Shown: positions 10,659 to 20,911 of the stretch, one piece after another
Layout: each line of letters opens with the position of its first letter
How positions within the stretch are numbered: the stretch's first letter is position 1
IMG/VR virus record: IMGVR_UViG_3300021347_000014
Location: 1 to 34,710 of that record
Length of the DNA: 34,710 nucleotides
From: a virus
Direction: 5' to 3' (one strand)
Program-made: the position numbers and the translations under genes
The notes under the pieces: model-generated
The model's input: the letters and a program-made list of their open reading frames with translations, nothing else
Databases searched by the model: none
What the model was told of the DNA's origin: nothing

Positions 10659-10764
10659 GTAGACAATTTTTTGGTTTCTTTAAAATTATATTAACATAAT
10701 ATTTACCATCAGAAATTACTTGATGCTTGTAACAAATATTATAATTTTTTGTTCTTTTACTCAT
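10618..10764 (-). CDS. Small hypothetical protein (48 aa) after the SET gene
   Basis: An ATG at 10764 overlaps the stop of the SET-domain gene as ATGA. It opens a 48-residue frame: MSKRTKNYNICYKHQVIS, GKYYVNIILKKPKN and a short tail ending HLYQ. Its last 41 bases are antisense to the 3' end of the metallophosphoesterase gene, so the two transcription units collide here. The coupling and a plausible protein body (basic start, beta-like middle) support it; the tail may be fortuitous. Function unknown. Confidence 0.45.
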   Translation of the reverse strand: MSKRTKNYNICYKHQVISDGKYYVNIILKKPKNCLLKLSYNYPNHLYQ

Positions 10765-11063
10765 ACACTATACATACTGTACTTAACAGTAAGCTCTGAT
10801 CCTGCCTCTATATCTTCTAATGTATATAGATAGCGTGTCACTTTACCCTGTATCTCACAGTTAGGTCTATCACTATGATTAATAAATCCACCGAGTGGTG
10901 TTCGTAGTAAGTTATCAGGTTCTCCATACCATTTAGCGTGTGTCATTCCTATAACTTCGTAAGCTGGTATATCTTTAATTGCAAACAAACCCAACCCTTC
11001 TATCTTGCTTGGTTGAATAGTAAGATAGTTAGGTAACGGTCTGTACTTATTCTTCTTCTTCAA
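10761..11063 (-). CDS. Minimal SET-domain protein (putative lysine methyltransferase)
   Basis: A 100-residue protein with the SET signature in order: IEGLGLFAIKDI (residues 21-32, the GxGLFA strand that contacts S-adenosylmethionine), GGFINHSDRPNC (58-69, the NHSxxPN knot) and ELTVKYSMY (90-98, ELxxxY with the catalytic Tyr). There are no pre-SET or post-SET cysteines, so the domain is near minimal size. SET enzymes methylate protein lysines; the substrate here is unknown. No ATG is available at the N-terminus: the frame begins with TTG at 11063 directly after an in-frame stop, with GAGG upstream. It overlaps the end of the 36-residue gene before it. Confidence 0.75.
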   Translation of the reverse strand: MKKKNKYRPLPNYLTIQPSKIEGLGLFAIKDIPAYEVIGMTHAKWYGEPDNLLRTPLGGFINHSDRPNCEIQGKVTRYLYTLEDIEAGSELTVKYSMYSV

Positions 11064-15776: not shown

Positions 15777-16130
15777 TTAATTTGTTGGCTCAAATCCTAA
15801 AATGATATTAGCCATAAATTCCCAATAGTTATTAATAACCCTAGACTGTAATTCATCACTAGGATTATTGTCTATACTTCCCATTTCTATAGCTAACGGC
15901 ACAAGCTCATTATTCCAATAAGGTATATCAAGAGCTAAACCTTGTAACCATTCTTTCATTGCTTTATATTTTCCATAGCGTTCAATATTCCAATCGTACT
16001 CACTATAAAAACGATTAAATAAATAATCTATTTTTTCTTGATCACTTGCTGATTCATTACCCTCTATATAAATTCTATCTAATATATATCTTTTATAATT
16101 AGCTTTATATTTTGTATGGTGTAGTTTCAT
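15777..16130 (-). CDS. Conserved phage protein of unknown function (EWLQGLALDIPYWN type)
   Basis: A 117-residue, mostly helical protein with IERYGKYKAMKEWLQGLALD, IPYWNNELVPLAIEMGS and a C-terminal NNYWEFMANIILGF. Proteins with the same arrangement (ERxGxxxAxxEWLQGL, IPYxNxE, NYWxFxA) occur in many phages of Gram-positive and other bacteria, without known function. Its ATG overlaps the preceding gene's stop. GGGGAAG is the ribosome site. Confidence 0.65.
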   Translation of the reverse strand: MKLHHTKYKANYKRYILDRIYIEGNESASDQEKIDYLFNRFYSEYDWNIERYGKYKAMKEWLQGLALDIPYWNNELVPLAIEMGSIDNNPSDELQSRVINNYWEFMANIILGFEPTN

Positions 16131-16495
16131 TACTTCCCCTCTACTATTTCTTTTTCTTGTACTTCTTCTATGTCTATTTCATCCCCGTTAATATCAAAAA
16201 GATAACCCCAATCATCCCCTATATACCATTCGGATATGCCGTTATAATAATTATAAACTTCATACAATTCGTAATTATTATCTTCATTAATCCATTGTAA
16301 AAATTCTTCATAAGTTACAGAATCTTCAATATGATTAATAGGTAGGTTAAAAACTATACCTAATCTTTTATAGTTTTTAGTTAGACAATCTTCGTTACAG
16401 AAATAATATTCATTGAATAAATAAATACCTTTACTCATCCCTTTATTACATCCGTCACATTTACGAAGATAATATTTTTTTTCTTTAGTTTTCAT
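16130..16495 (-). CDS. Zinc-finger protein with acidic C-terminal domain (121 aa)
   Basis: A 121-residue protein. The N-terminal KCDGCNKGMSKGIYLFNEYY and FCNEDCLTKNY form a treble-clef-like zinc finger, CxxC...CxxxC. It continues with a very acidic, Tyr/Trp-rich C-terminus (EDNNYELYEVYNYYNG, DDWGYLFDINGDE). This pairing (a 'CxxCxKGMxxG...YFCxxxCL' finger plus an acidic tail) is recurrent in phages. The acidic tail may mimic DNA or bind a basic partner; that is speculation. First gene of the leftward operon that ends at the terminator at 14964. CATAAAGGGGAAGTAATG is the start context. Confidence 0.65.
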   Translation of the reverse strand: MKTKEKKYYLRKCDGCNKGMSKGIYLFNEYYFCNEDCLTKNYKRLGIVFNLPINHIEDSVTYEEFLQWINEDNNYELYEVYNYYNGISEWYIGDDWGYLFDINGDEIDIEEVQEKEIVEGK

Positions 16496-17382
16496 TACTT
16501 CCCCTTTATGTTTGTAACCTTTATGTTACTAGATACTTATTATATGTATAGTATTTCTTTTAATTTCTTTTTAGTTGGTTATTGTTGTGAAGTGTAGAGG
16601 AAGTTATAAGAGTAATCTTATTATCGTCATCTATATTAAAACACCGTATACCCATTATTAAAAAAAATATATCCTATATTTTCCATTATGTCTTATTTTG
16701 TAGTATTTCTTAGATAAAACCCTATAAACACTAAGGAAAAAAAGTTGACCTATAACATATAATATGTTGCGTTGAGTAGATATAAATGGATATGTCAATA
16801 TGAAACCCCAACATCTATGATGTTAGACACCAGTAAATCCTTGGAAACTTTTACTAAGAAATATGCACTGTCTTGGTAGATAAACTACAGTTAGTAATAC
16901 TACTAATACAGTAATAAGTGTTATCTCTGATCTGTTTGAGTGGTTGTTTACACTCTTTGCATTTCATACTGTTTATTCTAGTTGTAGTTTCTTTATTGTG
17001 GTTCTAACCCTGTGTCACTCCCTCCCAAAACCAGAATGAACTAAAATTAGTAACAAATAAATATGTGAAGTAATAGGCTATTACCCTAGTTAAGATGGTC
17101 CAGCTAGTCCACGTTCCCTTTAGTGTTGATCCAACATTCCTTTCCTTAGAGCTAGAGAAATGTTTTGTTTGTTGTTGTCATAGTATCACAACTCAACTAA
17201 TATGCAAGTACCTAGAAAGACTAGGTGCAGCATATGAGGATATGCTTCAATTTATAATAAGAAAGAAAGGCTTTTCATTAACATTTAAGTATGTGGTGTA
17301 CTTGAAAGTATTGTTTAAGATGAGATGTTTTTGTGGATTGTTATATTTTTCATTACAGTAAATGGACAGACTGTACGTGTAC
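16496..17382. other. Gene-poor control region with many inverted repeats; possible structured RNA
   Basis: This 0.9 kb stretch separates leftward and rightward genes and has no convincing gene. Perfect short inverted repeats are dense: 16810-16824 (6 bp, loop TAT), 16832-16855 (6 bp), 16891-16906 (6 bp, loop ATAC), 16938-16955 (5 bp), 17040-17051, 17070-17084 (7 bp, one-base centre), 17210-17226 (ACCTAG, loop AAAGA) and 17229-17246 (AGCATAT, loop GAGG). The last two stand two bases apart. A rightward terminator follows at 17383, implying a rightward transcript through here. A frame at 17095-17361 is open but poorly supported. The region may hold a noncoding RNA, operators or an origin. Confidence 0.45.
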
Positions 17383-17412
17383 AAAGCCCTGTAGCAATAC
17401 AGGGTTTTGTTT
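17383..17412 (+). terminator. Rightward rho-independent terminator with GCAA tetraloop
   Basis: CCCTGTA (17387-17393) and TACAGGG (17398-17404) form a perfect 7-bp stem around a GCAA loop, followed by TTTTGTTTATT. The stem is extended by a G-T and A-T pairs. It lies just before a strong rightward promoter, so it closes a transcript from the region to its left. Confidence 0.8.
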
Positions 17413-17413
17413 A

Positions 17414-17442
17414 TTGACTTACTTTCTAATCTGGTTTATAAT
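17414..17442 (+). promoter_or_regulatory. Strong rightward sigma70-type promoter
   Basis: TTGACT (17414-17419) and a perfect TATAAT (17437-17442) are separated by 17 bases. It sits immediately after a terminator and upstream of the rightward genes beginning at 17523. The leader contains a CCCTAG / CTAGGG hairpin near 17490. Confidence 0.75.
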
Positions 17443-17522
17443 AAAGTATCAAAAACACTTCCCTGTTTGTGATTAACCCAAAATCCCTAGCTCCTAGTCT
17501 AGGGTATGGTATAGTAATTTTT

Positions 17523-17645
17523 ATGAGTGATGATATACCTGTAGAAGATTGCGACCAGTGCCTGAATCCTTTTTGGGCAGATCAGCTTACTGATGGCTTA
17601 TGCCCTACTTGTGGTGTAAACGATTTAGAGAGTTTCTTTGAATAA
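17523..17645 (+). CDS. Zinc-ribbon microprotein (40 aa)
   Basis: An ATG at 17523 opens MSDDIPVEDCDQCLNPFWAD, then GLCPTCGVNDLESFFE. CDQC and CPTC form a compact zinc ribbon in an acidic protein. It is the first gene after the promoter at 17414. There is no clear Shine-Dalgarno, which is unusual beside its neighbours. Function unknown; small zinc ribbons of this kind often bind nucleic acid or transcription components. Confidence 0.6.
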   Translation: MSDDIPVEDCDQCLNPFWADQLTDGLCPTCGVNDLESFFE

Positions 17646-17709
17646 AAAAATTTTTTTTACCCCACATTTGATTTTGTAAGTTATTAAAGTTATTGAAAGA
17701 AAGGATATT

Positions 17710-18890: not shown

Positions 18891-19010
18891 ATGGCTAAAG
18901 TAAGTTGGATGTATGGTGGTAAACGCTACTATGGAACTCTGATTAGGGAAACTAAAACACATAAATTTGCTAGAACAGAAAACGGCAAAGTCAAAAAAAT
19001 AAAGAAATAA
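18891..19010 (+). CDS. Small basic protein before terminase (39 aa)
   Basis: AAGGAGAGAGA directly precedes an ATG at 18891. The frame, MAKVSWMYGGKRYYGTLIRE, then TKTHKFARTENGKVKKIKK, ends in a TAA that overlaps the terminase ATG. NGKVKKI echoes NGKVKKIMF in the gene before it, hinting at a shared segment. A strong ribosome site and coupling to terminase support it. Function unknown. Confidence 0.65.
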   Translation: MAKVSWMYGGKRYYGTLIRETKTHKFARTENGKVKKIKK

Positions 19011-20911
19011 TGGCAGAGCGTAGGCAATGTAGCAATACAGGATGTGAGAAAAAATTTACTATTAAAAATGGTAACAGTCGTTACTGTTCTACTCAATGTT
19101 CTAATAGAGCTAAATACAAACGAGCTAAAGAGCGTGAGCGTTTAGAGGCTATTAATAAACTAGATATAAACGAAACAACATTAAATCGTGGTGAACACTA
19201 CAAAGACTATGTAGAAAATTATGCAAGTCTAGTAGAGCAGAAAACAATTACACAATCTGATGTAGCACGACTTATAGGCGTAGCTAAAGATATAGTAAAT
19301 AAAATGCACAATGCTTATCGCATAGATAAAACTAATGCAGAACAACGAGAAGATTGGTCAACCCCACAAGCAGCTATTGATTCACTACAGAAATTTGAAG
19401 ATTTTAGAGATAGGTACTTTCAGACAGAAACAGGAGATAAGTATGAAACAGCAGACTTTCATCAACGCTGGATTCAATCTATCTTAGATGCTATTGATAC
19501 TGGTGGAGAACAGATGATCCTTAGCCCACCACGACACGGCAAGACTGACTTGTTAACACACTTTGCTATATGGCAGATATGTAAAAATCCTAATGTCAGA
19601 ATTATGTGGGTTGGTGGTAACGAAGAGATTGCAAAAAATGCTGTAGGTGCTGTAGTTGACCACTTAGAACATAATGAAAAACTTATAGAGGATTTCTGTG
19701 GACCAGGAGCTACCTTTAAACCTAAGAATAGATCAGGTAAGTCCTGGACATCTGGACAGTTTACTACTGCTACAAGAACAGTTACTGGTATTAAATCACC
19801 TACTATGGTTGCTGTTGGTAAAGGTGGTAAGATTCTCTCTCGTGACTGTGACTTGATTATTGCAGATGACATTGAGGACCACGGAACAACTGTACAGCCG
19901 AGTGCTAGAGAGCAGACTAGGCAATGGTGGACTACCACACTATCTAGTCGTAAAGAGGAACATACAGCTATTGTTGTTATTGGATCAAGACAGCATCCTG
20001 AAGATTTATATAACTTTCTTTTAGAAAACCCAGAGATGACCACAATTGTAGAAGAGGCACATAGTACAGAGTGTGTACTGCCAGAAAACGAAATTGAGTT
20101 ACATTCTGACTGTATGTTATGGGCAGGAAAGCGTAGTTACAAATGGTTATTGTCAAGATTACACGCAGCTGAAACCACAGGTGGTAAAGCTATCTTTGAG
20201 ATGGTGTATCTTAACAAAGCATTTGTAGATGGTATAACAATGTTTGATGTAGAAGAGATAGATGTTTGTAGAGATGTAAATAGAGTTGTAGGGCAGGTAC
20301 CTGCTGGAACACATTTGATAGCAGGACTTGACCCAGCTTCTACAGGTTATCAAGCTTGTTTCTTATGGGCTATAGATTCTGATTCAGGAAAACTTTATAT
20401 GGTTGATATAGAAAATCAAGAAGGTGGTGGTGTCATACAAGCTAAACAAACCATAAAGAAATGGCACGAGATGTATGGACTTGCACACTGGGTTATTGAA
20501 GAGAATGGTTTTCAGAGAGCAATACGACAAGACAAAGATTTAAAAGATTACTGTTCACGAGTAGGTATTTACTTAGAAGGACATCAGACACAAAAAAATA
20601 AATTTGACCCTATCTTTGGCGTAGGAAGTATGAGAGAATTATTTAAGGAACAATTAATAAGTTTGCCTTATGGTAGTGCAGAAAGCGAAACTAAGAGTAA
20701 TATATATCGTAGGCAACTAATTTATTTTTCTACTGGTGCTAGTAAGCAGTCTGGTAGAAATAATAAGTCAGATGTTGTTATGGCTTCTTGGTTTCCAATG
20801 AAAGTTATAAGAAGAATGCAAAAAGAAAGATTGGCTGAAGTAGGATTAGATTATGAACCAAGTTTTGGAGAATGGGATATAACTGATATGAACGAAACGC
20901 CTTGGAGTTAG
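19010..20911 (+). CDS. terL: Terminase large subunit with N-terminal zinc finger and HTH-like region
   Basis: A 633-residue packaging motor. ATPase: ILSPPRHGKTDLL (Walker A, residues 170-182), DLIIADDIED (Walker B, 281-290). RNase H-like nuclease: AGLDPASTG with D441, an acidic pair at 497-498 (WVIEENG), and D588 in KSDVVMASW. The N-terminus is unusual: CSNTGCEKKF and SRYCSTQCSN (C7, C12, C26, C30) form a zinc finger, followed by a basic helix and a helix-turn-helix-like segment (QSDVARLIGVAKDIVNKMH, about 85-103). No separate small-subunit gene is seen, so these extra domains may supply DNA recognition. It is coupled by TAATG to the gene before and stands two bases before the portal. Confidence 0.92.
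   Translation: MAERRQCSNTGCEKKFTIKNGNSRYCSTQCSNRAKYKRAKERERLEAINKLDINETTLNRGEHYKDYVENYASLVEQKTITQSDVARLIGVAKDIVNKMHNAYRIDKTNAEQREDWSTPQAAIDSLQKFEDFRDRYFQTETGDKYETADFHQRWIQSILDAIDTGGEQMILSPPRHGKTDLLTHFAIWQICKNPNVRIMWVGGNEEIAKNAVGAVVDHLEHNEKLIEDFCGPGATFKPKNRSGKSWTSGQFTTATRTVTGIKSPTMVAVGKGGKILSRDCDLIIADDIEDHGTTVQPSAREQTRQWWTTTLSSRKEEHTAIVVIGSRQHPEDLYNFLLENPEMTTIVEEAHSTECVLPENEIELHSDCMLWAGKRSYKWLLSRLHAAETTGGKAIFEMVYLNKAFVDGITMFDVEEIDVCRDVNRVVGQVPAGTHLIAGLDPASTGYQACFLWAIDSDSGKLYMVDIENQEGGGVIQAKQTIKKWHEMYGLAHWVIEENGFQRAIRQDKDLKDYCSRVGIYLEGHQTQKNKFDPIFGVGSMRELFKEQLISLPYGSAESETKSNIYRRQLIYFSTGASKQSGRNNKSDVVMASWFPMKVIRRMQKERLAEVGLDYEPSFGEWDITDMNETPWS

Follow-up and report, generated by a model that had tools for sequence, protein, structure and literature searches.

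Organisation of the locus

The window, i.e. the whole stretch of DNA analysed here, is IMG/VR record IMGVR_UViG_3300021347_000014 with a length of 34,710 nt. The interval studied is 16740-17412. The following features are found within it and directly downstream.

16745-16772, plus strand: dif-like (XerCD) site with an 11-6-11 layout, TTGACCTATAA / CATATA / ATATGTTGCGT, matched in the phage family and in the host
16807-16827, minus strand: intrinsic-terminator-like hairpin 3' of the microgene; nine pairs followed by GTTTCATATT in the terminator scan
16854-16967, minus strand: gene of a 37-aa putative zinc-ribbon microprotein (MKCKECKQPLKQIRDNTYYCISSITNCSLSTKTVHIS) with four cysteines; the CxxC ORF is conserved
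17007-17172, minus strand (strand inferred): conserved covarying block, RNA1, probably a leader or noncoding RNA of a leftward transcript
17175-17203, plus strand: putative small-RNA promoter, sigma-70-like, TTGTCA-17-TAATAT, conserved in relatives
17208-17412, plus strand: putative small noncoding RNA of about 205 nt with five hairpins, unannotated; MFE -65.4 kcal/mol
17208-17228, plus strand: hairpin F of the small RNA; both partners changed in all 8 pairs
17229-17246, plus strand: hairpin G of the small RNA; its loop GAGG is unconserved
17351-17379, plus strand: hairpin I of the small RNA, with loop UGGACA
17381-17412, plus strand: rho-independent terminator with 13-nt arms, 92% complementary
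17414-17442, plus strand: putative rightward-gene promoter, TTGACT-17-TATAAT (11 of 12 matches), directly downstream of the terminator

An earlier note on this DNA had described an excess of inverted repeats, and this is borne out. The interval contains seven non-overlapping perfect hairpins (stem of at least 6, loop 3-8), while 1.27 +/- 1.01 are expected from 200 dinucleotide shuffles, none of which reached the observed number. With stems of at least 5, ten hairpins are found, compared with 4.6 in shuffles. The note had also seen no convincing gene here. This is correct for the frame at 17095, but the microgene at 16854-16967 (minus strand) is conserved. Its proposed noncoding RNA fits the right third (17208-17412), with promoter, structure and terminator, while a single RNA over 16740-17412 is not supported, because the interval also contains the microgene, the dif-like site and another conserved block.

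Relatives and host assignment

The terminase of the window (TerL, 19010-20911) retrieved 80 IMG/VR loci, many of them with DNA similar to the interval, and a 16-base core pattern found at least 119 stretches. The comparison set consists of about 100 IMG/VR relatives. Among the matches listed, 74 of the 100 new loci (L197-L296) contain further RNA motifs and 26 do not; one of these 26, L199, was recovered by model R1 of the left block. L001 is a copy of the window and was excluded from sequence tables and alignments. Rows L032 and L197 (long insertions) were dropped before A1, and L057, L037 and L048 (deletion or long insertions) before A2, from which L002 was dropped as well. For A4, five duplicate 21-mers were removed, keeping 21 of 26. 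It is from comparison of these sequences that the anatomy, conservation and covariation of the locus, as well as the identity of its site with the host dif, are read.

No near match to the window exists in INPHARED, where the distant matches are weak and chance-like; one of them, HTVC201P (E = 0.4), was dropped. The TerL matches in INPHARED are all below 60% identity and include phages of Streptomyces, Mycobacterium, Microbacterium and Gordonia. Closer to the proposed host, one genome of the genus Actinomarina (G009) contains two contigs (C36 and C30; L190-L195) of related phages, with TerL 52-60% identical and gene content in common. Overlapping repeats in these contigs imply units of about 43.8 kb each. 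The dif-like site and the RNA are absent from both of these SAG phages. The presence of two different related phages in one Actinomarina genome suggests co-infection or co-sorting. For the order of Actinomarina, the available text of PMC7771536 describes phages in single cells, one prophage in tRNA-Val, and prophages as rare, and that of PMC3861242 describes a phage fragment with an integrase linked to Ca. A. minuta through tRNA-Val.

Elsewhere in the window, the minus-strand gene at 10761-11063 encodes a SET-domain protein (PF00856, E = 1.4e-11), which is unusual for a phage.

A putative small RNA at the right end

The plus strand of 17208-17412 folds with a z-score of -6.76, and none of 200 shuffles is as stable; the minus strand has z -2.72. 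At least nine of the twelve promoter letters upstream of it are matched in 40 of 56 distinct relatives, compared with 10.6% of shuffles. In the relatives, the promoter reads TTGTCA-17 followed by TAATAT, TATAAT or TAGAAT, at almost invariably the same position. The terminator described earlier at the end of the interval is present (17381-17410 plus the U-tract). From the sigma-70 promoter at 17175-17203, a rightward transcript of about 205 nt would be made, ending at the terminator 17381-17412.

Covariation in relatives, the check proposed in the earlier note, is found in hairpin F, in the terminator stem and in 17007-17172. In hairpin F, 92.9% of the cells are paired, a percentage flattered by centring each row on its own best stem; the covariation is 0.776, compared with 0.280 when shuffled and no more than 0.211 in slid controls. 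For 23 relatives, the RNAalifold consensus contains hairpin I and the terminator; in 8 of its 16 pairs both partners have changed, and pairing in the terminator stem is preserved through such changes. The loop UGGACA lies between the arms ACAGU and ACUGU of hairpin I in all 23 aligned relatives. The 3' part, i.e. hairpin I and the terminator, is likely the functional core, since some relatives have lost the upstream hairpins: in those such as L057, 17208-17351 is absent while hairpin I and the terminator are retained.

The two adjacent hairpins at 17210-17226 and 17229-17246 had been placed exactly. The Shine-Dalgarno look of hairpin G, on the other hand, is without weight, since its GAGG loop is not conserved: some relatives have GGGG, GAAA or GGGA, and in others hairpin G has been replaced or deleted. 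The competing frame at 17095-17361, a conserved protein in which would have spoken against a noncoding RNA, was rejected as a gene. Only 2 of 27 relatives keep it open, and the substitutions (71/105/67 at codon positions 1/2/3) have no third-position preference. This agrees with the earlier proposal that the terminator closes a transcript that is not an mRNA.

Judged by sequence, the element looks like a small-RNA gene, with its own promoter, covarying structure, an intrinsic terminator and no ORF. It has no match in Rfam 15, which gives no family in the window at the gathering threshold and only sub-threshold matches at relaxed thresholds (best BTnc231, 22.1 of 80.4 bits). ARAGORN finds no tRNA or tmRNA gene in the window and 14 relatives. 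We propose that it represents a new family of small RNAs, clearly supported by structure.

Downstream, TTGAC and TATAAT of the rightward-gene promoter are present in most aligned relatives. An A-tract/T-tract (TAAAAAAATTTTTTTTTA) follows a 58-aa ORF at 17643-17659, with similar tracts behind the RNA region in many relatives; it is possibly a bidirectional terminator.

The conserved left block

The most conserved part of the interval is 17007-17172. In 37 relatives, RNA1 contains 26 pairs in four helices, and 95.7% of the cells are paired compared with 35-48% when slid. Ten pairs are changed on both sides, and 72 cells are changed on both sides compared with 23.9 in shuffles. RNAalifold predicted helices P1-P3 and stem D was picked by eye; the plus strand served for building model R1. 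The fold itself is no better than shuffles (z +1.24 on the plus strand and +1.95 on the minus strand). RNA1 was not found in 42 genomes of the host genus by a DNA search and a model search, both run without a positive control.

RNA1 is read as a leftward RNA because of the wobble cells in stem D and P3 and because of a hairpin and promoter in relatives. The G-U cells in stem D number 26 on the minus strand and 2 on the plus strand, and those in P3 favour the minus strand by 4 to 1, while P2 favours the plus strand by 10 to 5. Most of the inspected relatives that lack the dif-like site have, leftward of RNA1, a long hairpin followed by a TTGACA-type promoter. A leftward promoter for RNA1 is seen in 5 of 56 relatives, which is not above shuffles. 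We suggest that RNA1 is probably the leader of the leftward transcript carrying the microgene.

The alternative is that 17007-17412 is transcribed rightward as a single noncoding RNA of about 400 nt, which was our initial assumption. Both halves covary, and the fold of the whole region is better on the plus strand (z -3.19) than on the minus strand (z -0.42). However, nearly all of this plus-strand stability comes from 17208-17412, to which the left block adds little. Furthermore, a conserved promoter sits between the halves, in other relatives the left half occurs without the right one, and the wobble cells of the left half favour the minus strand. We dropped the single plus-strand RNA on the wobble, promoter and context results and now regard it as unlikely.

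RNA1 also occurs without the dif-like site and the microgene, beside other genes (L251, L283 and the L201 group). In L235, L255 and L294, it is followed by a tRNA-like sequence, GGGGTAG...GGGTTCAATTCCC...CTACTCC, that is not called by ARAGORN.

A putative zinc-ribbon microgene

The CxxC ORF is found at the microgene position in 87 of 104 loci with sufficient sequence, as 53 distinct proteins, e.g. MKVCKECKNTLKQLEGSNRYYCDSAPTICSMSMKVHNI. The substitutions (297/257/435 at codon positions 1/2/3) show a third-position preference, and in many relatives the start is TTG instead of ATG. The hairpin 16810-16824, one of those in the interval, is the terminator of this gene. The microprotein has no Pfam or PHROGs family at cut-off; the name zinc ribbon comes from the cysteine spacing and from weak sub-threshold matches to Pfam zinc ribbons, and we propose a new family of putative zinc-ribbon microproteins.

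The microgene accompanies the dif-like site. Among 75 distinct loci with sufficient sequence, 58 have the site, and the microgene is present in all 58, which are related sequences and thus not 58 independent cases; it is present in 3 of the 17 loci without the site.

Two more small cysteine-rich proteins with sub-threshold zinc-finger matches flank the region, at 16130-16495 (minus strand) and 17469-17645 (plus strand).

A copy of the host dif site

The core of the dif-like site is the hairpin 16754-16768. The site (16745-16772) is the sole copy in the window, with two mismatches to the family consensus, and none was found in 100 shuffles. Its pattern, TTGTCCTATAAT-N4-ATTATGTTGCGT, occurs once in almost every relative, in either orientation. 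In viral contigs, the exact pattern is found in 36 stretches, of which 34 have genes in common with the window; the other two are short and carry the RNA1 or microgene motif. Among 61 distinct phage sites, both arms are kept while the centre exists as 26 different hexamers.

The arms lead to the host. A scan of one genome per species (84,980 species) with the arm pattern gave 71 stretches. Actinomarina, Actinomarinales or OCS155 are named in 23 titles, and five further stretches are from other Actinobacteria with the same flanks. The remaining ones include Synergistota and Phycisphaerae, and many look like chance matches. Within the genus Actinomarina, 30 of 42 genomes contain the site, 29 of them as a single copy; in the remaining genome it lies on two contigs whose flanks are identical. 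In both of the two genomes analysed for GC skew, the sign switches at the site: 9 of the 10 bins preceding it are positive and 9 of the 10 following it are negative (in the second genome, two bins are mostly masked). Since the skew flips there, position and layout identify the host site as the chromosomal dif. The window site differs from it by one mismatch in each arm. By sequence, the phage thus carries at 16745-16772 a copy of the dif (XerCD) site found in marine Ca. Actinomarina; this suggests that recombination enzymes are borrowed from the host.

A tree of 67 rows, 41 with the plus and 26 with the minus orientation, requires at least 11 changes in the orientation of the site. Oppositely oriented neighbours are up to 96.7% identical; the flip is local and the flanks stay. 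To our knowledge, XerCD cannot invert its own site, and no mechanism for the frequent flips was found.

Interpretation

The explanation that we favour, and consider rather probable as a whole, is that the window belongs to an uncultured tailed phage whose host is marine Ca. Actinomarina, and that 16740-17412 and the downstream promoter form a compact control region of five parts, not a single element. It would combine the small RNA, the leader block, the microgene and a copy of the host dif used by XerCD phage-on-phage. On the leftward side, the RNA1 leader would be followed by the microgene with its own terminator and then by the dif copy. Host XerC and XerD would bind the phage site and recombine it, for the most part between phage copies of the site and not with the chromosome, since the centre has drifted from that of the host while both arms are kept. 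Such recombination would resolve multimers or circularise the genome. The microprotein is a candidate helper of XerCD at the phage site, and the small RNA may act in trans, base pairing via the loop UGGACA of hairpin I.

It could instead be that the dif copy is an attP, through which a temperate phage integrates at the host dif by XerCD, like Xer-exploiting mobile elements. Both arms match the host dif, and in one phage (L297) the host centre TATATA is present and the match to the host continues a few bases past the site. No phage recombinase was found either: tyrosine recombinases (PF00589) were detected in none of 8 and none of 14 virus records, an absence that falls short of proof because most of these records are fragments; the host-genus genome G009 has two PF00589 genes. 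However, no phage integrated at a chromosomal dif was detected. In the 30 genomes with a visible site, all are single copies or a duplicate contig end, at the 71 dif-pattern loci the window region is never matched beyond the site itself, and a scan of viral contigs with the right flank of the host gave two matches, neither of them an integrated prophage. Moreover, only 2 of the 61 phage centres equal that of the host. Tyrosine-recombinase strand exchange requires matching centres, so this pattern is easier to reconcile with recombination between like molecules than with integration. Since centres unlike dif are also present in many known Xer-using elements, centre drift alone cannot exclude integration. 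Taking all this together, integration at dif is possible but rather unlikely. Another reading takes the 28-bp palindromic element for a divergent promoter or a repressor operator, and not for a recombination site, in view of TATAAT-like sequences on both strands and its location between leftward and rightward genes. Against this, the outer arm letters are preserved in both orientations, the host chromosome has the 28-mer once, where the GC skew switches, and the arm pattern also exists in Synergistota and Phycisphaerae, which makes this reading highly unlikely. The earlier suggestion of a replication origin fares worst and has very little probability. The cumulative GC skew has a local minimum at about 16-17 kb, in an AT-rich, divergent region, but the skew at the interval tracks gene direction, and as it turns where leftward and rightward genes diverge, an origin is unnecessary. 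No iteron family was found, only one two-copy direct repeat, and the recognisable DNA site is the dif-like recombination site.

Returning to phage-on-phage recombination at a host-dif copy, it can be speculated that this tailed-phage lineage has a private, invertible dif, served by host XerCD and its own microprotein, by which phage DNA is recombined only with itself. The small RNA would belong to the same switch, and lysogeny or segregation would proceed without a phage recombinase. In this full form the scenario is doubtful. The conserved arms and hypervariable centre lead to a testable prediction, namely that the host dimer-resolution machinery has been made private to the phage. Through the dif sequence of the host itself, the site also ties a tailed-phage lineage to a marine bacterium that is among the smallest free-living ones. 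As dif is host-specific, dif-like sites could be used to assign hosts to uncultured phages.

Comparison with known systems

In the literature, covering few subscription papers, we found none joining Actinomarina, phage and dif. The Xer/dif phages described there are filamentous, micro- and membrane-containing phages, and no tailed phage using dif was found. The membrane-containing phage Jorvik has a dif-like attP and attB and no integrase, according to the available text of PMC10589892. The phage of the window resembles the Xer-exploiting integrative elements (CTXphi and kin, microviruses, Jorvik) in having a dif-like site, and no recombinase gene was found in the virus records, most of them fragments. 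It differs in being a terminase-bearing tailed phage, in having no integrated copy found, and in the zinc-ribbon microgene alongside.

The small RNA can be compared with the ornate phage RNAs GOLLD and ROOL, which are also structured noncoding RNAs in phages. It is, however, only about 205 nt long, it has no Rfam match, and the window is without tRNA genes.

Plasmid Xer sites (cer, psi, pdif) keep their arms, and a private centre limits recombination to like molecules. The phage site likewise has conserved arms and a private centre, but it is located on a phage genome, and accessory sequences were not identified. Finally, the phage site is similar to the dif/XerCD site for resolution of chromosome dimers in its 11-6-11 layout, with arms that match the host chromosomal site at the GC-skew switch. 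Unlike a chromosomal dif, it is located on a tailed-phage genome, its centre is hypervariable and its orientation is free.
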